64,000 bases of DNA, taken from assembly GCF_907163135.1 (NCBI RefSeq), contig NZ_CAJQUA010000001.1, forward strand, positions 1,131,001-1,195,000, written 5' to 3'. Below, piece by piece: positions 40,685-58,868 of this stretch (the first letter of the stretch is position 1; each line of letters begins with the position of its first letter). Below the pieces are notes generated by a model. The model made no database searches. It was not told the DNA's origin and saw only the letters and a program-made list of their open reading frames with translations. Position numbers and translations under genes: made by a program. This stretch comes from Brachymonas denitrificans (GTDB lineage Bacteria > Pseudomonadota > Gammaproteobacteria > Burkholderiales > Burkholderiaceae_C).

Positions 40685-41998
40685 CTAGTCCGCCGTCACT
40701 TCCTCCGGCACATGGGTCTTCACCTGCCGGTAGCCCAGCTTCGGCAGGTAATGCCGCAACACCGGCGTGGTGATCACCGTGCTCACGATCGCCATGATGA
40801 CCAGCATGGTGAACACGTTCTTCGAGATCACGCCCAGGTCGTAGCCGATGTTGATCACGATCAGCTCCATCAGTGCGCGCGTGTTCATCATCACGCCGAC
40901 GATCTGCGACTCCCCGTGCGACATGCCGGCTGAACGCGCGGCCAGGTAGGACGGCAGATACTTGCCGATGCAGGCGGCCAGCACCACGATGGCACACCAG
41001 CCCCACAGGCCCAGACTGTCCAGCCCGCCGATGTCGGTGCGCAGCCCGGTGTAGGTGAAAAAAATCGGCAGAAAGAACACGTTGACGAACTGCCCGATGT
41101 GACGCCGCCAGGCTTCCACGAATTGCGGCTGGTCGTGCAGCAGCACCCCCAGCATGAAGCCGCCGAAGATGGCAAAAATGCCCAGCTTGTAGGTCACGAT
41201 GGCACTGAGGAACACCAGCACCAGAATCACGCCCAGCAGGTTGTTGCTCCAGTCTTCGCCCCCGCCCAGGTGGCGCACACACCAGCGCAGCAAGGGCCGC
41301 ACGCCCCACCAGCACACTGCCACGTACAGCACCAGCAGCGCCAGGGTGGAGCCGAATTGCGCGGCATCGAAACCGGACACCGCCAGCATGGTCACCAGCG
41401 CCAGCAGCAGCCAGCCCACCACGTCATTGATGGCGGCCGCGCTGATGGCAATCACCCCCAGCGGCTTGCGCGCAATGTCGAACTCGATCAGCATGCGCCC
41501 CAGGATCGGCAGTGCCGTGATCGAGAATGCCGTGCCCACGAACAAAGCCGCTGCCGTGGGATTGGCCTGTGGCGTGAGGATGGGCGTCATCCAGTAGCCC
41601 AGCGCATAGCCGAAGCCGAACGGCACCACCATGCTGGCCACGGCGATGCGCGTCACGCTGCGCCGATGTTCCTTTTCAGCGAGGTGGGAGAATTCAAATT
41701 CCATCCCGATCTGGAACATCAGCAGAATTAACCCTATCTGTGAAAGAATCTGCATCGCGTCGCCCGGCGTGGAGCGGAACACGAAATTGAAGGCATCCGG
41801 CCACAGCCAGCCGAACAGCGTCGGGCCGAGAACAATGCCGATGATGATCTCGCCCACGGCGGCAGACTGTCCCCAGCGCAAGGCCAGGTTGGCACCAATG
41901 CGGCCGGCCAGCACGATCACGCACAGCTGCAGCAGCGTGAAGAACAGCAGCAGTTCGCTCTTGTGCACCCCGGACAGGGCTTCGCTGGCGACGCTCAT
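40685..41998 (-). CDS. CPA2-family cation/proton antiporter (Kef-type)
   Basis: 437 aa, about 12-13 membrane helices. Motifs GEIIIGIVLGPTLFGWLWPD, MFQIGMEFEF and the AFSITALPILGRMLIE helix identify the CPA2 Na+/H+ or K+/H+ exchanger family. There is no C-terminal TrkA-N (RCK) domain, so it is not full-length KefB/C. It is the last gene of the 13-gene minus-strand pigment operon and overlaps the ketoreductase stop (ATGA), so it is made with the pathway. Its role in pigment production is not established. Confidence 0.87.
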   Translation of the reverse strand: MSVASEALSGVHKSELLLFFTLLQLCVIVLAGRIGANLALRWGQSAAVGEIIIGIVLGPTLFGWLWPDAFNFVFRSTPGDAMQILSQIGLILLMFQIGMEFEFSHLAEKEHRRSVTRIAVASMVVPFGFGYALGYWMTPILTPQANPTAAALFVGTAFSITALPILGRMLIEFDIARKPLGVIAISAAAINDVVGWLLLALVTMLAVSGFDAAQFGSTLALLVLYVAVCWWGVRPLLRWCVRHLGGGEDWSNNLLGVILVLVFLSAIVTYKLGIFAIFGGFMLGVLLHDQPQFVEAWRRHIGQFVNVFFLPIFFTYTGLRTDIGGLDSLGLWGWCAIVVLAACIGKYLPSYLAARSAGMSHGESQIVGVMMNTRALMELIVINIGYDLGVISKNVFTMLVIMAIVSTVITTPVLRHYLPKLGYRQVKTHVPEEVTAD

Positions 41999-42738
41999 GC
42001 GTACAGGCCCCCGTTGATGGAAATGGTCTGGCCGGTGATGTAGGCAGCTGCGTCCGATGCGAGGAAGGCGACCAGTTCAGCCACCTCTTCCGGCTTGCCG
42101 GCGCGTTTGGCGGGCACCATGTCCTTGATCAGCTTGTCGTCGAACACGCCTTCGGTCATGCTGCCGGCGATGATGCCGGGCGCCACGGCATTGACCGTGA
42201 TGTTGCGGCTGGCCAGTTCCAGCGACAGCGCGCGGGTGGCTGCCTGCAGCCCGCCCTTGGCAGCGGCATAGTTCACCTGCCCACGGTTGCCGGCCAGCGC
42301 CGCCACCGAGGAAATATTGATGATGCGCCCCCAGCGCTGGCGCACCATGGGCATGGTCAGCGGCTGTGTGACATGGAAGAAACCATCCAGATTCACCTGC
42401 AGCACGCGCTGCCACTGCGCGGCCGTCATGCCGGGGAAGGCGGCGTCGTCATGCACGCCGGCGTTGTTGACGAGGATGTCGATGGGGTGCTGCTCCAGCA
42501 GGGTGGCGAGCGCCTGCTGTACGGCAGCCGCATCGGTCACGTCGAACACGACGGGATCGGCACTGCCGCCTGCCGCGCGGATCGCCTGCACCACGGCATC
42601 TGCACGGGCCGGCTGGCTGCTGGCATGCACCCAGACATGGCAGCCGGCCTGGGACAGACGGCGGGCGATGGCGGAACCGAGATCGCCGCTGGCGCCGGTC
42701 ACGAGCGCATGGCGCTGACGGGAAGAGGAAGAGGACAT
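41995..42738 (-). CDS. 3-oxoacyl-ACP reductase, FabG-like SDR (ApeQ-type)
   Basis: 247 aa. NADPH motif TGASGDLG at 14-21, NNAG at 91-94, and catalytic Ser (SS at 143-144), Y157 and K161 in the YAAAK motif. Reduces the beta-keto group after each condensation in polyene chain growth. Located between the hot-dog dehydratase gene (12 bases) and the antiporter (overlap), the same dehydratase-reductase pairing as in known aryl-polyene clusters. Confidence 0.93.
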   Translation of the reverse strand: MSSSSSRQRHALVTGASGDLGSAIARRLSQAGCHVWVHASSQPARADAVVQAIRAAGGSADPVVFDVTDAAAVQQALATLLEQHPIDILVNNAGVHDDAAFPGMTAAQWQRVLQVNLDGFFHVTQPLTMPMVRQRWGRIINISSVAALAGNRGQVNYAAAKGGLQAATRALSLELASRNITVNAVAPGIIAGSMTEGVFDDKLIKDMVPAKRAGKPEEVAELVAFLASDAAAYITGQTISINGGLYA

Positions 42739-42750
42739 TGCGGGAAAAGT

Positions 42751-43197
42751 TCAGGTCTGTAAGGGAGCCGCCACATCCAGCATGGCGGCAATGCGCCCCT
42801 GCACCAGCAGGCTCTCGCCGGCATGCAGGCTGAACTGGTACATGGCCGTCTGTTCGCTGGCGGCGATGCGCTCGGCGCGCACGGTCAGGGGTTCGGAGCT
42901 GGCATCCAGCGTTTCGGCATGCAGTTGCACGTCGCGCACGCTGGTCAGGTAGCCGCCACGCGGGCGCTCGCCCTGTTGCTGTTGCAGGGCGCAATGCAGG
43001 GCCATGGCCTGCGCTGCATACTCGATGCCCAGCGCAGCGCCCATGCGGCCGTTCTCGCGCATGGGGTTGGCGGCATCCAGATGGGTGCGGGTGGTGCAGA
43101 CGATGTGCTGCTCATCCAGCTCACGCACTTCCTGCAGCAGGCACATGCTGCCCTGGTGCGGGATGCGTGCGGCGATCTCGCTCTGGCTCATCAGCAT
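42751..43197 (-). CDS. ApeP-type hot-dog 3-hydroxyacyl-ACP dehydratase
   Basis: 148 aa from ATG at 43197; ATG at 43191, which overlaps the upstream stop as TGATG, is equally possible. The IPHQGSMCLLQEV start and GIEYAAQAMALHCALQQ helix are typical of the ApeP-like dehydratase family of aryl-polyene and dialkylresorcinol clusters. It would remove water from the 3-hydroxyacyl intermediate to extend the conjugated chain. In studied systems this subunit works with a second hot-dog protein (ApeI), which here is fused to the ligase. Confidence 0.86.
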   Translation of the reverse strand: MLMSQSEIAARIPHQGSMCLLQEVRELDEQHIVCTTRTHLDAANPMRENGRMGAALGIEYAAQAMALHCALQQQQGERPRGGYLTSVRDVQLHAETLDASSEPLTVRAERIAASEQTAMYQFSLHAGESLLVQGRIAAMLDVAAPLQT

Positions 43198-44021
43198 GGC
43201 GTGACATCCACCTGCAGCCACTGGCCGGGCAACGACGGCAGCAGCACCCTGCCCGCCTGGCCGCTGGCCAGTTGCTGCAGCAGCGGCAAGGCGCGCATGG
43301 CGGGAATGCTGGTGCGCAGTTGCTCCAGCGCGGGGTCGGGCAGGCTCTGGCCGTTCACGCTCGCCGCCTGCGCCGCGGCATCGCTTCCCAGCCAGCGGAT
43401 ATCCAGGCGCGCCAGCGCCCCGGCATGCGGCTGCGGGCGCAGCACCATGGCGAGACCGGCCGCGTCGGGCACCGGACGCGTTGCACGCAGGGGTTCGGGA
43501 TAGTCAGCGTCATAGGCCACCAGCAGCATGTCGCGCGCTTCGCAAACACCCTGCACGGCTGCCTCCAGCAGGCCGGCGGCAAAGCTGGCATCGTAGGCCG
43601 CCAGCACCTGGCACGGGCCGGTTGCCTGCGCGGCAATGCACCAGTAGCCGGCTGCGGTGTTGTGCACCGAGTTGTGGAAACGGGTGGGCGATACGTCGCG
43701 CTGGTCGCTGGCCAGCACCTCGCAAATGGCATGGTAGTTGTGGCCATCGCCGGTGGACGAGCTGAACACCGATGCCAGCGCGGAGGGAGCCATGCCGGCT
43801 TGCGCACAGGCCTCGGTGCCCAAGGCCATCACGAGCTTGATGACGCGGCTGGAACGACGGCGTTCGGCCGGGGGCAGCATCTCGGGGACCGGCAGCACGG
43901 TGGCAGCGGGGACATAAGCCTCCTGCCCCGACAGAACCGCCTGTGCCTGCGGCCAATTGGCCAGCCCCGGTCCCAGTACGGCAAGGCCATGCACCCACAA
44001 TTGCAGAGACGATGTGGTCAT
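43191..44021 (-). CDS. Short beta-ketoacyl-synthase-like subunit without active-site cysteine (ApeC-type)
   Basis: 276 aa, about 130 residues shorter than a full ketosynthase. Resembles the N-terminal thiolase half (SSSTGDGHNYHAICE, FHNSVHNTAAGYWCIAAQ). Where ketosynthases have the nucleophile in TACSSS, this protein reads LAAYDASFAAGLLE, so the cysteine is absent. Such subunits pair with an intact ketosynthase as a chain-length-factor-like partner in aryl-polyene synthesis. The start overlaps the ketosynthase stop by four bases, which favours a 1:1 complex. Confidence 0.85.
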   Translation of the reverse strand: MTTSSLQLWVHGLAVLGPGLANWPQAQAVLSGQEAYVPAATVLPVPEMLPPAERRRSSRVIKLVMALGTEACAQAGMAPSALASVFSSSTGDGHNYHAICEVLASDQRDVSPTRFHNSVHNTAAGYWCIAAQATGPCQVLAAYDASFAAGLLEAAVQGVCEARDMLLVAYDADYPEPLRATRPVPDAAGLAMVLRPQPHAGALARLDIRWLGSDAAAQAASVNGQSLPDPALEQLRTSIPAMRALPLLQQLASGQAGRVLLPSLPGQWLQVDVTPC

Positions 44022-45232
44022 GCGCTACCTCCCACGCGGCTGAACACCAGACTGCAGTTGCTGCCGCCAAAGCCGAAGGAGTTGCTCAGTGCATGCTGCA
44101 GCGGCAGCGTTCGTGGCTGCAGCAGATAGTTCAACGGCGCAATGGCCGAATCCAGCGCCTGCGTACCGGCACTCCCCGGCCCCAAGCCGTGCGTGAGCGC
44201 CAGCGCACACACCACCGCCTCGACGCCGCCCGCGGCACCCAGCGTATGGCCGGTAAAACCCTTGGTCGAGCTGCAGGGCGTCTCCGCGCCAAACACTGCG
44301 CGCACCGCCTTGCCCTCGGCCAGGTCGTTGCTCGGCGTGGCGGTGCCGTGCAGGTTGATGTAGCCGATATCCTGCGGCTGCAGCCCGGCCATCTGCAGAG
44401 CGGCCTGCATCGCGGCCTGGGCACCTGCCCCTTCTGGATGCGGCGCCGACATGTGATGGGCATCGCTGGTTTCGCCATAGCCGGTGAGCAGAATGCTGCC
44501 TGCCGGCAATGCCTGCCGGTCTTCCGGTGCACGCTCCACCAGCGCAAAGGCCGCCGCTTCGCCAATCGAGAGGCCGTCACGCGCGCCGTCATAGGGACGG
44601 CAGGCGTTTGCGGAGGTCAGGCCCAGCGAGCGGAAGCCATACAGCGTTGTGAGGCACAGGGTGTCCACGCCCCCCACCACCACGGCATCGATCAGCCCGG
44701 CCTGCAACAGGCGGGCCGCACTGGCAAACACCTTGGCCGACGAGGAACAAGCCGTGGAAACCACCTCGGCCGGCCCCTGCAGGCTGAACCAGTCCTTGAC
44801 GAAGGCGCCGACCGAATAGGTGTTGTGGGTTTCGGCGTAATGGAAATGTAAAGGCAGGACCCCGGTCTGTGCGTCGCGCTCACGGTAGGCCAGCTCCGTC
44901 GAATAGATGCCGGCGGTGCTGGTGCCCAGAACCACCGCCACCCGATCGGCGCCATGGCGCTGCATGGCCTGGCGCACGGCGTCGGCAAAGCCGTCTGCCT
45001 GCAAACCGAGCTGGGCCAGCCGGTTGTTGCGGCAATCGTAGTGCTGCAGGGCTTGCGGCAAGGCCACTTCGTCCAAGCTGGCGACGGTGCCGGCCCAGGT
45101 CGGAAAATTGACCGTATCGAAATCGCACGGCGCCAGCCCGCTGCGCATGTCGCGCAGGGCCTGCAGCAGCGCTGCATTGCCGACGCCCAGGCAGGTGGTG
45201 GCCGTGTAATGGGTGAGAAGGATCGGGTTCAC
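44018..45232 (-). CDS. Beta-ketoacyl-ACP synthase, FabF-like (ApeO-type), GTG start
   Basis: 404 aa from GTG at 45232, which overlaps the deacetylase stop (GTGA). Intact catalytic triad: C162 in VSTACSSSAK, H295 in NLHGTATP, H329 in FTGHTLGAAG, with K324. It condenses malonyl-ACP with the growing chain and most likely dimerises with the cysteine-less subunit encoded next. This is the first of two active ketosynthases in the cluster. Confidence 0.93.
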   Translation of the reverse strand: MNPILLTHYTATTCLGVGNAALLQALRDMRSGLAPCDFDTVNFPTWAGTVASLDEVALPQALQHYDCRNNRLAQLGLQADGFADAVRQAMQRHGADRVAVVLGTSTAGIYSTELAYRERDAQTGVLPLHFHYAETHNTYSVGAFVKDWFSLQGPAEVVSTACSSSAKVFASAARLLQAGLIDAVVVGGVDTLCLTTLYGFRSLGLTSANACRPYDGARDGLSIGEAAAFALVERAPEDRQALPAGSILLTGYGETSDAHHMSAPHPEGAGAQAAMQAALQMAGLQPQDIGYINLHGTATPSNDLAEGKAVRAVFGAETPCSSTKGFTGHTLGAAGGVEAVVCALALTHGLGPGSAGTQALDSAIAPLNYLLQPRTLPLQHALSNSFGFGGSNCSLVFSRVGGSA

Positions 45233-48708: not shown

Positions 48709-49218
48709 TCAGGCTGCCAGCAGACGCTCGTAAGTCTGCAAATCGCCCGAGGAGAAGCAGCAGAACAGTACGTGCTCCACGCCGGGCGCCTGCGTCAGCG
48801 TGGCGCGCACGGTTTGCACCGCAATCGCGGCGGCATCGGCGTGCGGATAGCCATACACCCCGGTGCTGATGCCGGGAAACGCGATGCTGCGTACCCCGTT
48901 GGCCTGGGCCAGCAGCAGCGCGTTGCGGTAGCAGGAGGCCAGCAGGCCGGCCTCGCCCTGAGCGCCCCCATGCCAGACCGGACCCACGGTATGGATCACA
49001 TGCCGCGCCGGCAGCCGGTAGCCCGCCGTGATTCTGGCCTCACCGGTCGGACAGCCATGCAGCATGCGGCATTCCGCCAGCAACTCCGGCCCGGCGGCGC
49101 GGTGGATGGCACCGTCCACCCCGCCTCCCCCCAGCAGGCTGTTGTTCGCAGCATTGACGATGGCATCCACCGGCAGCGTGGTGATGTAGGCCTGGATCGC
49201 CTCAAGCACGGCAGCCAT
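48709..49218 (-). CDS. Macrodomain protein (ADP-ribose-binding / O-acetyl-ADP-ribose deacetylase, YmdB-like)
   Basis: 169 aa MacroD-type domain. [19 protein letters not shown] binds the distal ribose; further motifs are [22 protein letters not shown] (split over two strands) and [15 protein letters not shown] for the phosphate loop. Members hydrolyse O-acetyl-ADP-ribose or ADP-ribosylated protein or nucleic acid. A textbook AGGAGG sits five bases before its ATG and overlaps the stop codon of the LolA-like gene, so it is translationally tied to the pigment operon. No such gene is a usual part of aryl-polyene clusters, and its role here is unknown. Confidence 0.93.
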
Positions 49219-49841: not shown

Positions 49842-50804
49842 TCAGGAACGGGGATCAGGCGCCGTCACGCCCGGCACGGATTGGACAGGCTTCGGGGGCG
49901 AAGGTTTCCAGAAATCGAAAAAATTGAACCAGTTGTGCGGAGCAGCCCGGCACTGCGCCTCCAGCTCGGCCACATAGGCCTGCTGGGCCGCCTGCAGCCG
50001 CTGCCCACGCTCCGCGCGCGGGCAATCGGAAAAATCGGCCAGCGGCACGGCATGCACGCGATAGCGGTTGCCTTCCTCGTACACGCCGGCCAGAAAGAAC
50101 ACCGGACAGCGCAGCATGGCCGCCAGCCGCAAGGGGCCGGCGGGAAACGACGCTTCCTCGCCCAGAAATGGCAGGCGAACCACGTCATCGTCATCCAGCC
50201 CGCGATCCGCCAGCAGCCCCAGCATGTCGCCCTGCTCCAGCTTTTCGCGCGCCAGCAGCATGGAATCGACCCGGTTGAGCGCAATAATGTGGCGCGGCGC
50301 ATCCGGATTGATGGCGGCCAGAATGCTGTTGATCTTGCTGGCGTTTTCTTCGTACATCAGCATGTGGGCACGCCGCTGGTGCGCATCGCCAAAGGCCTTG
50401 AGCATGGCAAAGCTGCCGAAGTGCGCTCCCATGATGATCAGCCCGCGCCCCCGCGACAGCGTGGCCTCCAGCGCCTCGCGTCCCTCCAGACGGATGTCGA
50501 ACAGTTCCATCTGGCCGTTGAGCACGAACACGCGGTCATGAATGGTGGTGGCAAAGCTCAGGAAGTGGCGATAGAGCTGCCCCCAGCCGGCCGGCCGCTG
50601 CCACAGGTGCCGGTAGAACTGCTGCAGCGCCTTGCGCGCGCCCGGCGAGAACAGCAGGAAATACAGGGCGATGCCGCGCAGCACCAAGCGGCTCAGCGGC
50701 CGCCCCAGCAATAGCGACAGCCAGACCATGAAGCGCACCACCGGCACCTGGCTGCGCTCGCGGCGCGTGGCCCATTCGGCACTGGCTTCGCCCTGGCTAC
50801 TCAT
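49842..50804 (-). CDS. LpxL/HtrB-like acyltransferase of the pigment cluster
   Basis: 320 aa. N-terminal membrane helix, then the lysophospholipid/lipid A acyltransferase fold: GLIIMGAHFGSFAMLKAF with the catalytic H-x4 pattern, GLLADRGLDDDDVVRLPFLG, and FPAGPLRLAAMLRCPVFFLA. Members of this family in aryl-polyene clusters are believed to transfer an acyl chain during assembly of the lipid product. ATG overlaps the ligase stop by four bases. Confidence 0.88.
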   Translation of the reverse strand: MSSQGEASAEWATRRERSQVPVVRFMVWLSLLLGRPLSRLVLRGIALYFLLFSPGARKALQQFYRHLWQRPAGWGQLYRHFLSFATTIHDRVFVLNGQMELFDIRLEGREALEATLSRGRGLIIMGAHFGSFAMLKAFGDAHQRRAHMLMYEENASKINSILAAINPDAPRHIIALNRVDSMLLAREKLEQGDMLGLLADRGLDDDDVVRLPFLGEEASFPAGPLRLAAMLRCPVFFLAGVYEEGNRYRVHAVPLADFSDCPRAERGQRLQAAQQAYVAELEAQCRAAPHNWFNFFDFWKPSPPKPVQSVPGVTAPDPRS

Positions 50805-52525
50805 GCGTTTTCCTGCGCTGGCGCAGACAATGCCCGCAAGGTGCCGCTGGCCACGGTCTCCTCGCCGCGAAGCACCCTGAAGCTGGCCGCAAACGGCTTG
50901 CCAGGCGCTTCCACAGGCTCCAGCCGGATGTCGAGAACATCACCCGGCCCGCAGGGCAGCAGGAACTTGGCCTGCTGCACGCTGCAGGCCTGTCCGCGTG
51001 CTTGCGGCAGCGCGCGCCACGCATCCACACAGCGCTGCAGCAGCAGGGCCCCCGGCACCACCGGCTGGCCCGGGAAATGGCCGGCGAACACTGGATGATC
51101 CACCGGCACCTGCCAGCGCAAATCGGGCTTGTGCGCAGCCGCATGCTGCCGCAACTGGTGCTCGGCATACAGCCCCTGCAGAGCCTGCTGCGGCAGCTTG
51201 CTCGTCTCGTTGCGCGGCATGCGCTCCACCAGAATCAGTGGACGCGGCAGGAACACCGCCTCCACATAGGGGTGCAGCGCATCCAGGATGTCACGCGCGC
51301 TCATGCCCGGCGCCTGGGCCACCAGACACAGCCGTTCCACCTCCGGCACCAGCGGCGCATGGCCACCCGGAACATCCACCGGCTTGGGGAGAAAAAAGGC
51401 ACCATCCTGAATGCCAGGAATCTGTGCCAACTGATGATTCAGATAGGCCAGTGACGAGCGGCGCCCCGCGATATTCACCATGTCGGTCTTGCGGCCGTGC
51501 AGGATGAAGCCATCCTCTCCCACCAGCTCGATCACATCCGACATGGGCACCCGCCCCTCCACATGGCCGCCACTGGCAAAGGTCGTATCCCCTTGTTGCT
51601 CCAGCCGCACGCCCGGAAACAGGCGCCAGGCCGGGCCCTCCAGCGGCCGGCGCACGGCCAGCTGACTGGTTTCGGTGCTGCCGTAGATTTCGCGCAGCGG
51701 AGCGCCAAAGTGTGCCTCGGCCTGCCCGGCGAGTGCAGGCGCCAGCGGCGCCGTGGCGCAGAGCAACTGGTCCACCGGCGGATAGTCCAAACCGGCATCC
51801 ACCAGCACGCGCAGATGCACCGGCGTGGTCACTAGCATGCGCGGCTGCGGCACGGATGCCAGCGCCTGCGCCACGTCTGCCGGGTAGAACGGCCTCCCCG
51901 TCCAGAGGCTGCAACCGGCCAGCAAGGCCAGCAGCATTAACGATTCAAAGCCATACATGTGCTGGGAGGGCACCGTCCCCACGATGCAGGTCTGCGACCC
52001 CTGATCCAGCCCCAGCATTTGCGCTTCGGCCAATGCATTGAGATGCAGCTTGCCCCAGGTCTTGGCATGCGGCACCGGCTGGCCGGTCGAGCCCGAGGTG
52101 AATACCAGCGACACCACCTGTTCCGCGGGAATCTGCGGAATCTCCACATCCTGTGCCTTCGACGGAACCAGTTGCCGCACGACCGGCAGCAAGGGCATCA
52201 GTGCCTCCAGCCCTTCGCTCTCCCCGTCATGCAGGCAGACCGGCCGGGGGGCGTGCTGCAGCAGGTGACGCACCGCCTCCGGCGCAAGCGACGAGGGTTG
52301 CAGACTGACACGTCCGCTTACGATGCCGGCGCCGAAACCGACCAGAAACAGGTAGCGGTTGCGACAGACGTTGAGGACGTGGGTGCAGTCCGCCGGCAAC
52401 CCTGCCGCCAGCGCGTGCACGTCATGCAGCCACTGCCGGACCGTGATCGGCCCGTCGGCATCGCGTGCCAGCACCGCATCAGGCTGCGCATGGCCGCACA
52501 GGGGCCAGAAGGAACGTGCATTCAT
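50801..52525 (-). CDS. Acyl-AMP ligase fused to a C-terminal hot-dog (ApeI-like) dehydratase domain
   Basis: 574 aa bifunctional protein. Residues 1-460: adenylate-forming ligase with FTSGSTGQP (142-150), YGSTET (281-286), HGRKTDMVNIAG (343-354) and the catalytic Lys in RNETSKLP (K443); probably loads the aryl starter acid on an ACP. Residues about 470-570: FabZ/ApeI-like hot-dog with DHPVFAGHFPGQPVVPG (H483 kept), but Gln at position 497 where FabZ has its catalytic Glu. Known aryl-polyene systems encode the ligase and ApeI as separate proteins, so this is a fusion. The two motifs are in one uninterrupted frame. Confidence 0.92.
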   Translation of the reverse strand: MNARSFWPLCGHAQPDAVLARDADGPITVRQWLHDVHALAAGLPADCTHVLNVCRNRYLFLVGFGAGIVSGRVSLQPSSLAPEAVRHLLQHAPRPVCLHDGESEGLEALMPLLPVVRQLVPSKAQDVEIPQIPAEQVVSLVFTSGSTGQPVPHAKTWGKLHLNALAEAQMLGLDQGSQTCIVGTVPSQHMYGFESLMLLALLAGCSLWTGRPFYPADVAQALASVPQPRMLVTTPVHLRVLVDAGLDYPPVDQLLCATAPLAPALAGQAEAHFGAPLREIYGSTETSQLAVRRPLEGPAWRLFPGVRLEQQGDTTFASGGHVEGRVPMSDVIELVGEDGFILHGRKTDMVNIAGRRSSLAYLNHQLAQIPGIQDGAFFLPKPVDVPGGHAPLVPEVERLCLVAQAPGMSARDILDALHPYVEAVFLPRPLILVERMPRNETSKLPQQALQGLYAEHQLRQHAAAHKPDLRWQVPVDHPVFAGHFPGQPVVPGALLLQRCVDAWRALPQARGQACSVQQAKFLLPCGPGDVLDIRLEPVEAPGKPFAASFRVLRGEETVASGTLRALSAPAQENA

Positions 52526-53280
52526 TGCTGGCGCTCCTCACCCCTGGCTTGCACCGTCTGCGACGGGCTGGCGGAAAAGGTGCGCCAGTCCACCGAACGC
52601 ATGGCCCGCAGTGTGTCCCGCAATCCGCTGCGGTCTGCCGGCGGCAGCAGCCAGCGGCGCGCCAGCACTTCCAGCACGAACAGCGCCACCATCAACGCCG
52701 GAGACAGCACCGACGAATAAAACGCCCAGGCCGTCGGCGTCCCGAACACGAACAACCCGGCAGACACCAGCCATACCAATGCAATCGTGAGCGCCCACAG
52801 CCAGGTGATGGCGCGGGTGTAGCGCAACTGGGCCAGCGACAGCACCGGATGCACCATGCCCGCCATCGCCGTGCACAGCGGGGTATGGCCGGCTCGCAGC
52901 GTATGCGCAAAGGCCCAGAACACCAGCCCCAGCAGCAGGGTTTCCTGCAGGAAATAGTACAGGCGCACCTGCTGTGGCTGCACCAGGCCATCGTGACCCG
53001 CAGGCACCAGCCAGGCGAGGCCTGCAGACAGTGTCGCCAGCAAGCCCGCAGCCAGCGCGAATTGCCAGATCCGTCCCCCCAGGCGGGACCCTGCAAGCAC
53101 CCCGCCCCACACCGCCAGCGGCGCCAGCATGGGCAGCAGCGACCACCAGCGCGGCTCACGCTGCACGCAGGCCCAGAACACCAGCGCGGCATACGCCAGT
53201 ACGGCCAGCCCCTTCAACAGGGCCGGCAGGGACGGGCGCGGCAATTCCGCCGGAGAGGAAAGCATGTAGGAAGCAGGCAT
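52522..53280 (-). CDS. COG4648-type integral membrane protein of aryl-polyene cluster
   Basis: 252 aa with seven or so membrane helices and no catalytic motif I recognise. The VRLYYFLQETLLLGLVFWAF and SLAQLRYTRAITWLWALTIA segments resemble the COG4648 membrane proteins found beside the ligase in aryl-polyene clusters. Function unknown; an export or scaffold role is a guess. Its stop overlaps the ligase start (ATGA), and the ACP gene lies 35 bases upstream. Confidence 0.8.
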   Translation of the reverse strand: MPASYMLSSPAELPRPSLPALLKGLAVLAYAALVFWACVQREPRWWSLLPMLAPLAVWGGVLAGSRLGGRIWQFALAAGLLATLSAGLAWLVPAGHDGLVQPQQVRLYYFLQETLLLGLVFWAFAHTLRAGHTPLCTAMAGMVHPVLSLAQLRYTRAITWLWALTIALVWLVSAGLFVFGTPTAWAFYSSVLSPALMVALFVLEVLARRWLLPPADRSGLRDTLRAMRSVDWRTFSASPSQTVQARGEERQQ

Positions 53281-53315: not shown

Positions 53316-53609
53316 TCAGGCGGTGCGGTGCATCACGATATGGCCGGCCAGCGCACGCAGCGAGGCAAACACCTTGGCATTGTCGGCATCGCCAGCCTTG
53401 ATCTGCAGGCCATAGCGCTTGGAGACCACCAGCGCGATCTCGAGGATGTCGATGGAATCCAGGCCCAGGCCGTCACGGTACAGCGGAGTATCCGGTTCGA
53501 TCTCGGCTGCGGGAATATCTAGGTTGACTGCCTCGACGACCAGCTCTGCCAGTTCGGGCAGCAGCGCGTCAACGGCGGCGGCGTCAGGGGTGTGTTGTAC
53601 GTCGCTCAT
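53316..53609 (-). CDS. Acyl carrier protein, first gene of the leftward pigment operon
   Basis: 97 aa. Phosphopantetheine attachment at S52 in GLGLDSIDILE, four-helix ACP pattern. One of two ACPs, as in characterised aryl-polyene systems where one carries the starter and the other the growing chain; which is which cannot be told. Expressed from the divergent spacer with a consensus -10 about 29 bases upstream. Confidence 0.93.
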   Translation of the reverse strand: MSDVQHTPDAAAVDALLPELAELVVEAVNLDIPAAEIEPDTPLYRDGLGLDSIDILEIALVVSKRYGLQIKAGDADNAKVFASLRALAGHIVMHRTA

Positions 53610-53782: not shown

Positions 53783-54073
53783 ATGCTGAAACAACTGATC
53801 CTCGACTATCTTCGCCAGCAACCCGACGTTCCGGTCGACAAGCTCGCCGATCCCGCAGCCAGGATGGGCGAACTCGGCCTCGATTCCCTGGGCCTGGTCG
53901 AAATGCTGTTCGAGATCGAGGACAAGTACGGCTTCCAGATCGAGGAGCCGATGCGCTACGGCAGCATGACGCTGGACGAAGTGGTCGCTGACCTGGAGCA
54001 GACCATCCGCGCCCGCAACAACGGCGAGATGCCCGAGCTCCCGGCCCAGGCAGGCCCTGCCGGCCATGCGTGA
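53783..54073 (+). CDS. Acyl carrier protein, first gene of the rightward pigment operon
   Basis: 96 aa. Phosphopantetheine serine S35 in ELGLDSLGLVEML, followed by an acidic helix (FEIEDKYGFQIEEP). The C-terminal tail after residue 80 is flexible (PAQAGPAGHA). Overlaps the ketosynthase start by 8 bases, so the pair is probably co-translated and may interact. Confidence 0.93.
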   Translation: MLKQLILDYLRQQPDVPVDKLADPAARMGELGLDSLGLVEMLFEIEDKYGFQIEEPMRYGSMTLDEVVADLEQTIRARNNGEMPELPAQAGPAGHA

Positions 54074-55340
54074 AGTCGTCGTCTCCGGCATCGGGCTGAT
54101 CACCCCCTCGGGGCTGACGCGCGATGCCAGCTTCGCCGCCTGGCTCGAAGGCCGCAGCGCCGTCACCCAAGCACCCGAAGCCGTGCGCCGCTGGCTGCCC
54201 AACGCCCTGGCCGCCCCGCTGCCGCCCGGACTGGACGCCCGCCTCGACCGCGCCGACCAGGGCCTGGACCGCGCCACCCAGCTCGGCATGGTGGCCGCTG
54301 CCGAAGCCCTGCACGATGCCCGCTTCTCGCGCGACACCGTCAATACCGATCGCGCCGGTGTCTACGTTGGTGTGGGCCTGGCCGGCGCCGAAACGCTGGA
54401 AGCGCTCTATTCCACCTTCTACCAGCGCCTGTACGATCCCGAAGGCAACGGCCACCGTAACCCCACGGTGCTGCACCCGCTGACCGTACCGCGCCTGATG
54501 GCCAACGCCACGGCCGCAGCGGCCTCCATGCGCTACGGCCTCAAGGGCGCCTCGCACACCTATAGCGTGGCCTGCGCCTCGTCGGCGGTTGCCATCGGCG
54601 AAGCGTGGCGCGCCATTCTGGCCGGCCATGCCGACACCATGCTGGTGATCGGCACCGAGGCCCAGCTCACCACCGGCGCCTACCTCGGCTGGAACGCCCT
54701 GCGCGTGCTCGCCACGCCCGACACCGATGACATCGCCCAAAGCTGCAAGCCTTTCGACGCCCGCCGCAACGGCTTTGTGCTGGGCGAAGGCGCAGCCGCG
54801 CTGGTGCTCGAAACCCGCAGCACCGCCGAAGCCCGCGGGGCTCCCATCTACGGCGTGCTGTGCGGCTACGGCAGCAGCAGCGATGCCGCACATCTCACGG
54901 CACCCTCGGCCGACGGTCAGGCCCGCGCCATGCGCCAGGCCCTGCACGAGGCCCATATCACGCCCGAACAGGTCGGTTACATCAACGCCCACGGCACCGC
55001 CACCCAGGTTGGCGACGCCACCGAATCGCAATCGATCCAGGACGTGTTCGGCCCGCACGCCGCGCAGATTCCGGTCAGTGCCAGCAAGTCCATGCACGGC
55101 CATCTGATCGGCGCTGCCGGTGCAGTTGAATTCGCCAGCACCCTTCTGAGCCTGCACACCGGCTCCATCCCGCCCACGGCCAATCTGCAACAGCCCGACC
55201 CGGCCTGCCCGCTCGATTACGTTCCGCTACAAGCCCGTCACGGGCTTGCGCTAGAGTATGCGCTGTCCAACTCGTTTGCGTTCGGGGGCAGCAACGTCTC
55301 TCTGCTCGCGCGCAGATACCGGCCGCTGGCTGCCGCCTGA
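54066..55340 (+). CDS. Beta-ketoacyl-ACP synthase, FabF-like (ApeR-type)
   Basis: 424 aa with intact Cys-His-His: C170 in SVACASS, H309 in NAHGTATQ, H346 in SMHGHLIGAAG. Second active ketosynthase of the cluster, not overlapping a cysteine-less partner, so a homodimer is likely. By analogy with other aryl-polyene systems, one ketosynthase does the first condensation on the aryl starter. This one, next to an ACP and away from the other chain-growth genes, is the candidate. Confidence 0.93.
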   Translation: MREVVVSGIGLITPSGLTRDASFAAWLEGRSAVTQAPEAVRRWLPNALAAPLPPGLDARLDRADQGLDRATQLGMVAAAEALHDARFSRDTVNTDRAGVYVGVGLAGAETLEALYSTFYQRLYDPEGNGHRNPTVLHPLTVPRLMANATAAAASMRYGLKGASHTYSVACASSAVAIGEAWRAILAGHADTMLVIGTEAQLTTGAYLGWNALRVLATPDTDDIAQSCKPFDARRNGFVLGEGAAALVLETRSTAEARGAPIYGVLCGYGSSSDAAHLTAPSADGQARAMRQALHEAHITPEQVGYINAHGTATQVGDATESQSIQDVFGPHAAQIPVSASKSMHGHLIGAAGAVEFASTLLSLHTGSIPPTANLQQPDPACPLDYVPLQARHGLALEYALSNSFAFGGSNVSLLARRYRPLAAA

Positions 55341-55370
55341 CCTTCGCAGCCGCCGCCAAAAGGAAGCCCC

Positions 55371-56729
55371 ATGACCCCAGAATCCTCTCCGCCGGCAACA
55401 GCTGTGCCCGATACCCTCTATGACGTGCTGGTGATCGGCGGCGGCCCCGGCGGCAGCACCGTGGCCCCGCTGCTGGCGCAAAAGGGCTACAAGGTTGCGC
55501 TGCTCGAAAAATCGCATCACCCGCGCTTCCATATCGGCGAATCGCTGTTGCCGGCTAACCTGCCGCTGCTCGACGAGCTCGGCGTCGGCGACGAGATCCG
55601 CGCCATCGGCGTACCCAAGCATGGCGCCGAATTCGTCTCGCCCTGGCACGAAGCCGGCAGCCAGACCTTCCAGTTTGCCGATGCCTGGGACAAGAGCATG
55701 CCCTCGGCCTTCCAGGTGCTGCGCTCGGAGTTTGACGAAATCCTGTTCCGCAACGCCACGCGCAAGGGCGTGCACACCGTGGAAGGCTGCAAGGTCACTG
55801 CCGTGGATCTGGACAGTGATCCGGAGCGTGTGACGGTCCAGGCCAGGCATGACGACGGCAGCACCAGCCAATGGCAGGCGCGCTTTCTGGTCGATGCCTC
55901 CGGCCGCGATACCTTCCTGTCGAACAAATTCAGGATCAAGCACCCGAACAAGAAGCACAACAGCACGGCGGTTTATGCGCATTTCACCGGAGCCCGGCGC
56001 CATGAGGGCAAGGCTGAAGGCAACATCACCATCTTCTGGTTCGACTACGGCTGGTTCTGGTTCATCCCGCTGCAGGACGGCGTCACCAGCGTCGGGATGG
56101 TGACCTGGCCGCACTATCTCAAGACCCGCGGCGGCCGCAGCCTGGAGCAGTTCCTGCTCGATACCATCGCCACCTGCCCGCCGCTGGCCAAACGGCTGGA
56201 ACAGGCGCAGATCCATGCGCATGTGACGGCCACGGGCAACTTCTCCTACGTGTCCGAGCGCAACCACGGCCGCAACTATGTGATGCTGGGAGATGCCTAC
56301 GCCTTCATCGATCCGGTATTCTCGTCCGGCGTCTGGCTGGCAATGAAGGGGGGCGTATTTGCCGCAGAAGCCATCGACACCTTGCTGGCACAACCCGCCC
56401 GCCGTGCCGCAGCCTTGCGCAAGTTCGACCGCCAGATGCGCCACGGCCCGCGCGAGTTCTCCTGGTTCATCTACCGCGTCACCAACCCGACCATGCGCGA
56501 CATGTTCATGTCCCCGTCCGACAAATACCGCATGAAGGAAGCGCTGCTCTCCATGCTGGCCGGCGACATCTACGGCAAGACCCCGATCTGGAGCTCCATC
56601 CGCATCCTCAAGGGCGCGTACTACCTGCTCTCCACGCTCAACTACAAGCGCACCTACCGTGCCTGGAAAAAGCGCAGGAATGACATCGTCGCCATTCCGG
56701 GCCTGCTGCCCAACCAGACCGAATACTGA
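55371..56729 (+). CDS. FAD-dependent halogenase-like flavoprotein (tryptophan-halogenase superfamily)
   Basis: 452 aa. FAD motif GGGPGG at 23-28. HIGESLLPANLPLLDELGV and K83 in VPKHGAEF correspond to the region holding the catalytic lysine of flavin halogenases. WFWFIP at 228-233 matches the WxWxIP halogenase signature, and GDAYAFIDPVFSSGVWLAMKG is the second flavin loop (first 20 residues). Xanthomonadins carry bromine, so halogenation of the aryl head is the obvious hypothesis. Related non-halogenating monooxygenases or reductases share much of this pattern, so activity is unproven. Ribosome site AAGGAAG upstream. Confidence 0.8.
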   Translation: MTPESSPPATAVPDTLYDVLVIGGGPGGSTVAPLLAQKGYKVALLEKSHHPRFHIGESLLPANLPLLDELGVGDEIRAIGVPKHGAEFVSPWHEAGSQTFQFADAWDKSMPSAFQVLRSEFDEILFRNATRKGVHTVEGCKVTAVDLDSDPERVTVQARHDDGSTSQWQARFLVDASGRDTFLSNKFRIKHPNKKHNSTAVYAHFTGARRHEGKAEGNITIFWFDYGWFWFIPLQDGVTSVGMVTWPHYLKTRGGRSLEQFLLDTIATCPPLAKRLEQAQIHAHVTATGNFSYVSERNHGRNYVMLGDAYAFIDPVFSSGVWLAMKGGVFAAEAIDTLLAQPARRAAALRKFDRQMRHGPREFSWFIYRVTNPTMRDMFMSPSDKYRMKEALLSMLAGDIYGKTPIWSSIRILKGAYYLLSTLNYKRTYRAWKKRRNDIVAIPGLLPNQTEY

Positions 56730-56749
56730 GCCGCCCGCAAGGATCACGC

Positions 56750-57622
56750 ATGCTGCCTGCCCGCCTCCGCCTCTCCTCCGCCGGACTGCTGCTCGCCGCT
56801 CTGGCCATCGGCCTGCCGGCGCAGGCACAGACCGCCCTGCCCGCCAAGGATGCGGGCGCCACCCCGGCCGACAGCAGCAGCACCTCGCGCCGCCTGTTCG
56901 GCATCGAGGGACTGGAAGCCATCGGACTGGGCGCCGGAGTGGTGCATTTTCCCGCTTACCGCGGTGCCAGGACGACCCAGACCATGGTGCTGCCGGTACC
57001 CTACCTGCACTACGAAGGCGACTTCTTCAAGTCCGACAAGTACGGCATGCGCGGTGAACTGTTCAACAACGACCGCATCGAGCTGTCCATCAGCGCCTCG
57101 CTCTCGCCGCCCACCCGGGGCGACGTGCCCGAGCGCATCGGCATGCCCAACCTCAAGCCCACGGTCGAACTGGGCCCGCAGCTGGATTTCACGCTGATCG
57201 ACGGCAAGACGCATCCCGTCAACCTGCGCCTGCGGCTGCCGGTGCGCCAAGCATTCACGGTCGAACGCTCTCCGAAGAATGCCGGCGTGGTGTTCTCGCC
57301 CAACCTCAACCTGGATGTGCCGCTGGGCCAATGGAACCTGGGCATGGTGACCGGACCGATCTTCGCCAGCCGCAAGCAGCACGCCTACTTCTATGACGTA
57401 GCGCCCGAATACGCCAGCACCAGCCGCCCGGCCTACCAGGCGGGCGCCGGCTACAGCGGCTCGCAACTGCTGTTCTCGCTCAGCCGGAAATATCGCAACC
57501 TCTGGTTCGGATCCTACATCCGCTACGACAGCCTGCATGGCGCCAAATTCGCCGACAGCCCGCTGGTGGCGCAGAAGCGCTACGTCACCGGCGGCGTGGC
57601 GCTGATCGGCATCTACGACTGA
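56750..57622 (+). CDS. MipA/OmpV-family outer-membrane protein
   Basis: 290 aa with signal peptide (LLLAALAIGLPAQAQ). Beta-barrel pattern of alternating strands; family landmarks GLGAGVVHFPAYRGA, VLPVPYLHYEGDFFK and the final strand VTGGVALIGIYD ending in an aromatic-acid pair. MipA scaffolds peptidoglycan enzymes in E. coli, and OmpV-like relatives are porin-like. In this operon it may help place or excrete the pigment lipid. Stop overlaps the PAP2 start (TGATG). Confidence 0.86.
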   Translation: MLPARLRLSSAGLLLAALAIGLPAQAQTALPAKDAGATPADSSSTSRRLFGIEGLEAIGLGAGVVHFPAYRGARTTQTMVLPVPYLHYEGDFFKSDKYGMRGELFNNDRIELSISASLSPPTRGDVPERIGMPNLKPTVELGPQLDFTLIDGKTHPVNLRLRLPVRQAFTVERSPKNAGVVFSPNLNLDVPLGQWNLGMVTGPIFASRKQHAYFYDVAPEYASTSRPAYQAGAGYSGSQLLFSLSRKYRNLWFGSYIRYDSLHGAKFADSPLVAQKRYVTGGVALIGIYD

Positions 57623-58350
57623 TGGCGCAGCCGCCTGTACCGCCCGCCACCGGTCCGGCCCCTATCGCCAGCTGGCAGCGCCAGATCGGACAGCGCGTGA
57701 CCACCCTGTGGTGGCTCAAGGCCCTGGGGACCACCGCATTCATGTGGGTGTTCTTCCTGTTCTATTTCGAACTGCTGCACCATCCGCGCTACCCGATCAC
57801 GGTCATGCCTGATACCTGGATCGATCGTGCCGTCACCTTTTCGCCGGACTGGGTCATCATCTATTTTTCGCTCTGGGTATATGTATCACTGCCTGGTGCC
57901 CTGCAACGCGACCTGAGGGGGCTGCTCTGGCATGGCGCCAGCGCCTTGCTGATGTGTGCCGCGGGCCTGGCCTTCTATTACTGGTACCCTACGACTTTCA
58001 TGCAGCCCAGGGTGTACTGGAGCAGCCAGCCACTCGGACAAATTCTGCAGAGCGTGGACGCGCCGGGCAATGCCTTCCCGTCCATGCATGTGGCCTATGC
58101 GCTGTTTGCCTGGGCCTGGATCCGTCATGAGCTGCATGAAGTGCGCGCCCCGCGCTGGCTGCACATCCTGAGCCTGCTCTGGTGCATGGCCATCGGCTTT
58201 TCGACGCTGGCCACCAAGCAGCATGTATGGTGGGATGTGCTGGCGGGCATCGTGCTGGGCCTGTCCGCCGGCAGCATTGCCGTGCTGGCCACACGCTGGC
58301 GCAAGGGCCTGCCACTCCGCAAACCCATCACGTCTCCGCTGGAACCATGA
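57622..58350 (+). CDS. PAP2-superfamily membrane phosphatase
   Basis: 242 aa, about six membrane helices. Phosphatase motif 2 in NAFPSMHVAYA and motif 3 in STLATKQHVWWDVLAG, with the catalytic histidines; motif 1 (KxxxxxxRP) is not obvious, as in the inositol-phosphorylceramide-synthase/DUF-type branch. Could release phosphate from a lipid phosphate or transfer a phospho-head group. Overlaps neighbours on both sides, so it is part of the rightward pigment operon. Confidence 0.85.
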   Translation: MAQPPVPPATGPAPIASWQRQIGQRVTTLWWLKALGTTAFMWVFFLFYFELLHHPRYPITVMPDTWIDRAVTFSPDWVIIYFSLWVYVSLPGALQRDLRGLLWHGASALLMCAAGLAFYYWYPTTFMQPRVYWSSQPLGQILQSVDAPGNAFPSMHVAYALFAWAWIRHELHEVRAPRWLHILSLLWCMAIGFSTLATKQHVWWDVLAGIVLGLSAGSIAVLATRWRKGLPLRKPITSPLEP

Positions 58351-58868
58351 CCGAAGAACTGCACTATCCGATCGATCTCGACCAGGCCGCCATCGCCGCC
58401 CTGCTGCCGCACCGTGCACCCCTGCAGCTGCTGCAGCGGGTGGAGGTGCTGGCCCACGACCACTACACCGGTGAAGCCTGCTGGAGCGCCGACGATCCGG
58501 TGCTGGCCGGGCACTTCCCGGGTTGCGCCATCGTTCCCGGCGCGCTGCTGCTGGAAGCGGCGGCCCAGCTGGCTGGTGCTGGCCTGCTGGCCGGAGACCC
58601 GATCGCACGCGCCATCGCACCCGGCCACCTCGGCATGCTCACGGGGGTACGCAAATCCTGGTTCAAGCGCCCCGTGTTGCCGAACGAGCGGGTGCTCTTC
58701 ACCCTCAAATGCCGCCGCATGGGCGAAAAGGCAGTGCTGGCCAGCGCCACGGCCGAGGTCGACGGCCAGGAAGCCGCCACGCTGGAATTCATGGTATCGC
58801 ATGTGCCGGCAGAAAGCCTGCAGCACCTTATCCCGGCCGAACAGCTCAAGGACCTGCTGGGAAGCTGA
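58347..58868 (+). CDS. FabZ-like 3-hydroxyacyl-ACP dehydratase
   Basis: 173 aa from ATG at 58347, which overlaps the PAP2 stop (ATGA). Hot-dog fold with H56 in DPVLAGHFPG and E70 in IVPGALLLEAAAQLAG, so both FabZ catalytic residues are present, unlike the domain fused to the ligase. Third dehydratase domain of the cluster and last gene of the rightward operon. Converges with the Nudix gene 6 bases on. Confidence 0.88.
   Translation: MTEELHYPIDLDQAAIAALLPHRAPLQLLQRVEVLAHDHYTGEACWSADDPVLAGHFPGCAIVPGALLLEAAAQLAGAGLLAGDPIARAIAPGHLGMLTGVRKSWFKRPVLPNERVLFTLKCRRMGEKAVLASATAEVDGQEAATLEFMVSHVPAESLQHLIPAEQLKDLLGS

Follow-up and report, generated by a model that had tools for sequence, protein, structure and literature searches.

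A fused ApeH–ApeI protein in a Brachymonas aryl-polyene cluster as a predicted one-site dehydratase partner of ApeP

The fused gene and its pigment cluster

In the window, the whole 64,000-nucleotide stretch of Brachymonas denitrificans DNA that we analysed, a single open frame on the minus strand runs from an ATG at 52525 to 50801 and encodes 574 amino acids with zero internal stops (Table 1); a plus-strand reading of the same interval in its given frame was rejected, stops being present. Pfam places an AMP-binding domain at residues 13-292 (74.3 bits) and a FabA-like domain at 472-523, confirming the proposal of an earlier note on this DNA that a ligase and an ApeI-like domain share one uninterrupted frame. 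NCBIfam returned 43 weak matches; the 25 of the 43 that were listed, ligases and FabZ (the latter at 472-563), are all below cut-off. The ligase half carries the motifs TSGSTG (143-148) and YG.TE (281-285), and its K443 is invariant in a 10-sequence alignment that includes E. coli ApeH. By homology with ApeH as described in PMC8253772, this half would load hydroxybenzoate directly onto an ACP.

The second half has the GHF His of ApeI in a FabA/FabZ-like hot-dog domain and follows ApeH immediately among aryl-polyene genes. It does not combine His and Asp/Glu on one chain, as a self-sufficient FabZ/FabA homodimer does, since Gln497 occupies the acid column. His483 and Gln497, with codons CAT and CAG, are where the earlier note had located them. 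A profile of 12 ApeI sequences of the E. coli branch detects the fused hot-dog at 2.7e-6, and hhalign of the window branch against the E. coli branch aligns Gln497 to the ApeI Asp. Our structure model of the fused protein, built from a 12-row alignment, is of moderate quality (mean pLDDT 71.9, pTM 0.53); its C-terminal domain, a helix at 492-504 holding Gln497 followed by four strands, mostly at pLDDT 75-94, is consistent with a hot-dog. The 50 best Foldseek hits of the model are all ANL-type adenylating enzymes covering the ligase part (TM 0.28-0.42), so the model tells us little about the dehydratase half. When the hot-dog part was searched against the PDB, 3esi_A and 6qsr_A were retrieved besides FabZ chains. 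Entry 6qsr, which we take to be the Xenorhabdus doucetiae ApeI/ApeP complex (Grammbitter et al. 2019, JACS), has an ApeI-like chain A (GHF…PGVAQID) and an ApeP-like chain B (PGWFAIE, without HF). As in the window, the ApeI-like chain carries the His and the ApeP-like chain the Glu, but the 6qsr ApeI is a separate protein with Asp, whereas the window ApeI is fused and has Gln.

Table 1. Features of the fused gene and of the surrounding cluster (positions in the window).
Feature	Position	Strand	Basis
ApeQ-like ketoreductase	41995-42738	-	NCBIfam FabG; 46% to E. coli ApeQ
ApeP/ArcI-type partner hot-dog	42751-43197	-	ApeP profile, hhalign, alignment
ApeP Glu codon, within GIEYAAQ (window ApeP without HF motif)	43021-43023	-	alignment
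ApeC-like chain-length factor	43191-44021	-	32% to E. coli ApeC
ApeO-like ketosynthase	44018-45232	-	NCBIfam PRK09185, 542.7 bits
ApeD/ArcR-type acyltransferase, downstream of fusion, overlapping	49842-50804	-	Pfam Lip_A_acyltrans
ApeI/ArcS-type hot-dog, in-frame C-terminal part, aa 456-574	50801-51160	-	Pfam FabA-like, profiles, PDB matches
Gln497 codon (CAG) of fused hot-dog	51035-51037	-	residue columns
His483 codon (CAT) of fused hot-dog	51077-51079	-	residue columns
ApeH/ArcT-type aryl-ACP ligase domain, aa 1-455	51161-52525	-	Pfam AMP-binding, alignment, Foldseek
K443 codon of fused ligase	51197-51199	-	alignment
ApeG/ArcU-position gene, directly upstream of fusion, overlapping	52522-53280	-	conserved position
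Acyl carrier protein, ArcV/ApeF-like	53316-53609	-	Pfam PP-binding
Divergent second operon	53783-58868	+	Pfam, NCBIfam, comparison with L001
FabZ-like stand-alone dehydratase, GHFPG + Glu	58347-58868	+	NCBIfam, residue check

The expected partner of the fused hot-dog, ApeP, is encoded on the same strand. It has no Pfam or NCBIfam match, shows no link to E. coli ApeP by blastp, and matches 6qsr_B weakly (E 0.0068). Because our first ApeI and ApeP profiles were seeded with the window proteins and took in FabZ-like matches, the window's scores against them were not independent, and the link of both proteins to the E. coli branch was redone with profiles that exclude the window proteins. Such a profile, made from 13 ApeP sequences of the E. 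coli branch, detects the window ApeP at 3.7e-11, and hhalign places its Glu on the Glu of that branch. The retained Glu and this profile match agree with the earlier suggestion that this protein would be the partner of the fused domain.

Among the neighbouring genes, the ApeG/ArcU-position gene has no Pfam or NCBIfam match and the ApeC-like factor no NCBIfam match. Pfam and NCBIfam identify further minus-strand genes for LolA, a macro-domain protein, an MMPL exporter, a polysaccharide deacetylase and a Na/H antiporter. The divergent operon encodes an ACP, an ApeR-like KS (34% to E. coli ApeR), an FAD halogenase-like protein, MipA, PAP2 and the FabZ-like dehydratase, and all six genes are kept in B. 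denitrificans L001. The presence of a halogenase, a MipA-type protein, an antiporter and a polysaccharide deacetylase in Pfam and NCBIfam, compared with the table in PMC3949708, places the locus among arcuflavin/xanthomonadin-type aryl-polyene clusters, with the product predicted from the gene content. In the arc (arcuflavin) clusters of Azoarcus sp. BH72 described there, the local order acyltransferase–dehydratase–ligase–arcU–ACP is the same, and the deacetylase, exporter, LolA, antiporter, halogenase and MipA-type protein are shared, the macro gene being the exception; in Azoarcus, however, arcS (dehydratase) and arcT (ligase) are separate neighbours and the arc genes form two unlinked loci, whereas the window has a fusion and one locus. 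Of additional note, the halogenase-like gene suggests that the pigment is halogenated or otherwise oxidised. The macro-domain gene (48709-49218, minus strand; Pfam Macro, 164 bits) sits between LolA and the exporter inside the pigment operon; B. denitrificans retains it (85%, dN/dS 0.16), but none of the other loci in the comparison showed it, including L136 and L137 of the same genus.

Layout and key residues across aryl-polyene loci

A strong ApeH match occurs in four of the nine genomes of the genus that were searched (G000, G001, G004 and G005), and in all four the ligase and the hot-dog form a single frame. The broken frame in relatives that might have undone the earlier reading was thus not encountered, and a chance frame or an assembly slip was rejected on the same ground. 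The codons of His483 and Gln497 are identical in L001. Between the window and L001, the ligase part has a dN/dS of 0.086 and the hot-dog part one of 0.103, ratios that are rough at dS values of 0.86 and 1.22; they point to purifying selection on both halves of the fusion.

For a wider comparison, a profile of 10 ligases (E ≤ 1e-40) gave matches in 95 of 397 phylum genomes and 102 of 299 family genomes, and 120 fetched stretches together with the window and E. coli CFT073 made up a set of 122 loci. These were sorted as fused or split by the ligase-to-hot-dog distance; an earlier sorting by frame ends had left 16 loci without ApeI. ApeI adjoins ApeH in 113 of the 122 loci, 56 times in the same frame and 57 times in a separate one, so that the domain order, which the earlier note proposed to seek in other clusters, is indeed found there. 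No adjacent ApeI was found in the other nine loci, among which a His-less ApeI could escape because the search profile contains the GHF motif. Both layouts are frequent in the phylum sample (80 loci: 35 fused, 37 split, 8 with none) and in the hand-picked family sample (38 loci: 18 fused, 19 split, 1 with none). Five loci (L027, L028, L029, L033 and L048) have ApeH-like ligases and no detectable ApeI in the fetched stretch; some of them may have a different dehydratase arrangement.

The gap between ligase and hot-dog is 46-151 nt in fused loci and 30-158 nt in split ones; with the spacing so similar in both layouts, a lost stop or a shifted frame is all that fusion requires. On a ligase tree of 116 rows (quick search, SH-aLRT support only; 6 of the 122 loci, with ligase matches below 360 aa, were left out), at least seven changes between fused and split are required and six changes of the fused label are forced by well-supported branches, gain and loss of fusion being indistinguishable on this unrooted tree. 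The window's fused group consists of four rows, all of its own genus, amid split relatives.

The two catalytic columns behave differently from each other. The His is present in all 113 ApeI domains. The acid column reads D in 67, H in 14, Q in 8, E in 8, A in 7, G in 3 and S in 2, with N, K, T and R once each, so that Asp/Glu is found in 75 and a non-acid residue in 38. The earlier note had asked whether Gln might be the normal residue of ApeI domains; it is not, Asp being the commonest, yet the acid is unconserved at this position. Non-acid domains occur in 23 of 56 fused and 15 of 57 split loci, and at least 13 changes between acid and non-acid are needed on the tree (107 rows). A comparison of fusion with acid loss gave no signal over six independent pairs, which are too few. 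All four rows of the window's genus have Gln.

In ApeP, all 107 rows, the window's included, have the Glu, and none of them has an HF motif before it; a 108th row, the L118 "ApeP", also keeps the Glu but was dropped as FabZ-like because it has the HF motif. Among the 104 loci with both ApeI and ApeP, ApeI is non-acid in 31, and ApeP keeps its Glu in every one of these 31. Some His lies within 16 residues before the ApeP Glu in 36 of the 108 rows (35 of the 107), the window ApeP not among them, so in some of these proteins the second half-site may not be dead. The Asp kept in 67 ApeI sequences likewise suggests a role for this position in some lineages.

A proposed one-site heterodimer and its alternatives

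Based on these findings, we propose a mechanism for the fused protein. In FabA and FabZ, the active-site His of one subunit faces the acid of the other subunit. Taking this geometry together with the invariant ApeI His and ApeP Glu, it would be reasonable for a single site to be built from the His of ApeI and the Glu of ApeP, and we consider it highly probable that the bifunctional ApeH–ApeI protein pairs with ApeP as a one-site heterodimeric dehydratase. The N-terminal half would adenylate the hydroxybenzoate starter and load it onto the ACP, as its homology suggests, while the C-terminal hot-dog would join ApeP in a 3-hydroxyacyl-ACP dehydratase, a heterodimer predicted to have a single working site in which His483 comes from the ApeI half and the Glu from ApeP. 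Gln497 would then belong to the second half-site, which would stay unused: ApeP has no HF motif there, the motif that in FabZ bears the His, so an acid missing at this position should cost little. The fusion itself is probably the product of read-through between two adjacent genes, the domains being about equally spaced in split clusters.

This scheme recalls known systems. In PMC8041823, published in 2021, the A. baumannii CRAB C1 protein likewise has ApeI fused to the ApeH C-terminus and forms a heterodimer with ApeP that has a single active site, and it is described as both acyl-ACP synthetase and dehydratase; a purified enzyme set including ApeH and ApeP of A. baumannii made aryl polyene on ACP in vitro. 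ApeH–ApeP is again named as the dehydratase in PMC8358021. Therefore, the earlier statement that the two are separate proteins in characterised systems holds for E. coli and for arcS/arcT of Azoarcus and fails for A. baumannii. The ape cluster of E. coli CFT073 resembles the window in having ApeI directly after ApeH and an ApeP with Glu and without the HF motif, but its ApeI is separate, 117 aa long, with Asp at the acid column. The ApeH–ApeI fusion is thus already published and common, and not new in kind.

The reading of the earlier note was that Gln497 inactivates the fused dehydratase and that the stand-alone protein at 58347 may dehydrate instead. That protein does keep both the His and the Glu, as had been noted, and it is conserved, at 87% to B. 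denitrificans and with a dN/dS of 0.125; a gene of this type occurs in six of nine genomes of the genus, and all four genus rows have Gln in ApeI. It looks, however, FabZ-like rather than a duplicate of ApeI, scoring 81.8 and 79.2 bits against two NCBIfam FabZ models, below their cut-offs. It was found in 0 of 11 other relatives searched (E ≤ 1e-15), and the surveyed loci besides the window contain one close match, in L137 of the same genus, and one further match at E ≤ 1e-8, the L118 gene. Against this reading, 38 of the 113 ApeI domains are non-acid, and phmmer (E ≤ 1e-8) found no similar gene in the fetched stretches of the 34 non-acid loci outside the genus, stretches that take in 3 kb upstream of ApeH and in 4 of 34 cases are under 12 kb, so that distant copies could escape. 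Moreover, the Glu-bearing ApeP is retained in the same operon, and the hot-dog half is under purifying selection with its His in place; if, as is likely, the Glu is that of ApeP, no replacement dehydratase is needed. We therefore regard this explanation as improbable. The 58347 protein could help in dehydration, but the sequences do not point to a need for it by the fused domain. Two further genomes of the genus, G003 and G008, have the FabZ-like dehydratase and no strong ApeH match; they are incomplete (86% and 71%).

Another possibility is that the hot-dog half has taken on a structural or docking role, holding the ligase to ApeP or to an ACP, with dehydration shared with a housekeeping FabZ. 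The repeated loss of the acid would fit this, as would the separate FabZ-like gene elsewhere in the genome (G000:C1:518781, 127 bits). Against such a role, the His is found in every ApeI domain, including those without the acid, although a domain of purely structural function would have no use for it, and we think this possibility improbable as well. The one-site heterodimer of ApeI and ApeP is thus the reading we prefer.

As to how the fused layout came about, we give about an even chance to a history in which fusion arose, or was undone, several times independently, the window's genus being one case, perhaps because a link between starter loading and the dehydratase was selected for more than once, while the acid of the unused site drifts freely. 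If true, these clusters would form a naturally occurring series of hot-dog heterodimers with one site each, and if the repeated fusions reflect selection, fused and split loci would be ready natural pairs for testing the benefit of linking both steps. Our results also suggest that an ApeI-like domain lacking the acid should not be taken for an inactive one. With 35 of the 80 phylum-sample loci fused, this layout is common, and tools for annotation and cluster mining should be prepared for fused and split genes alike.
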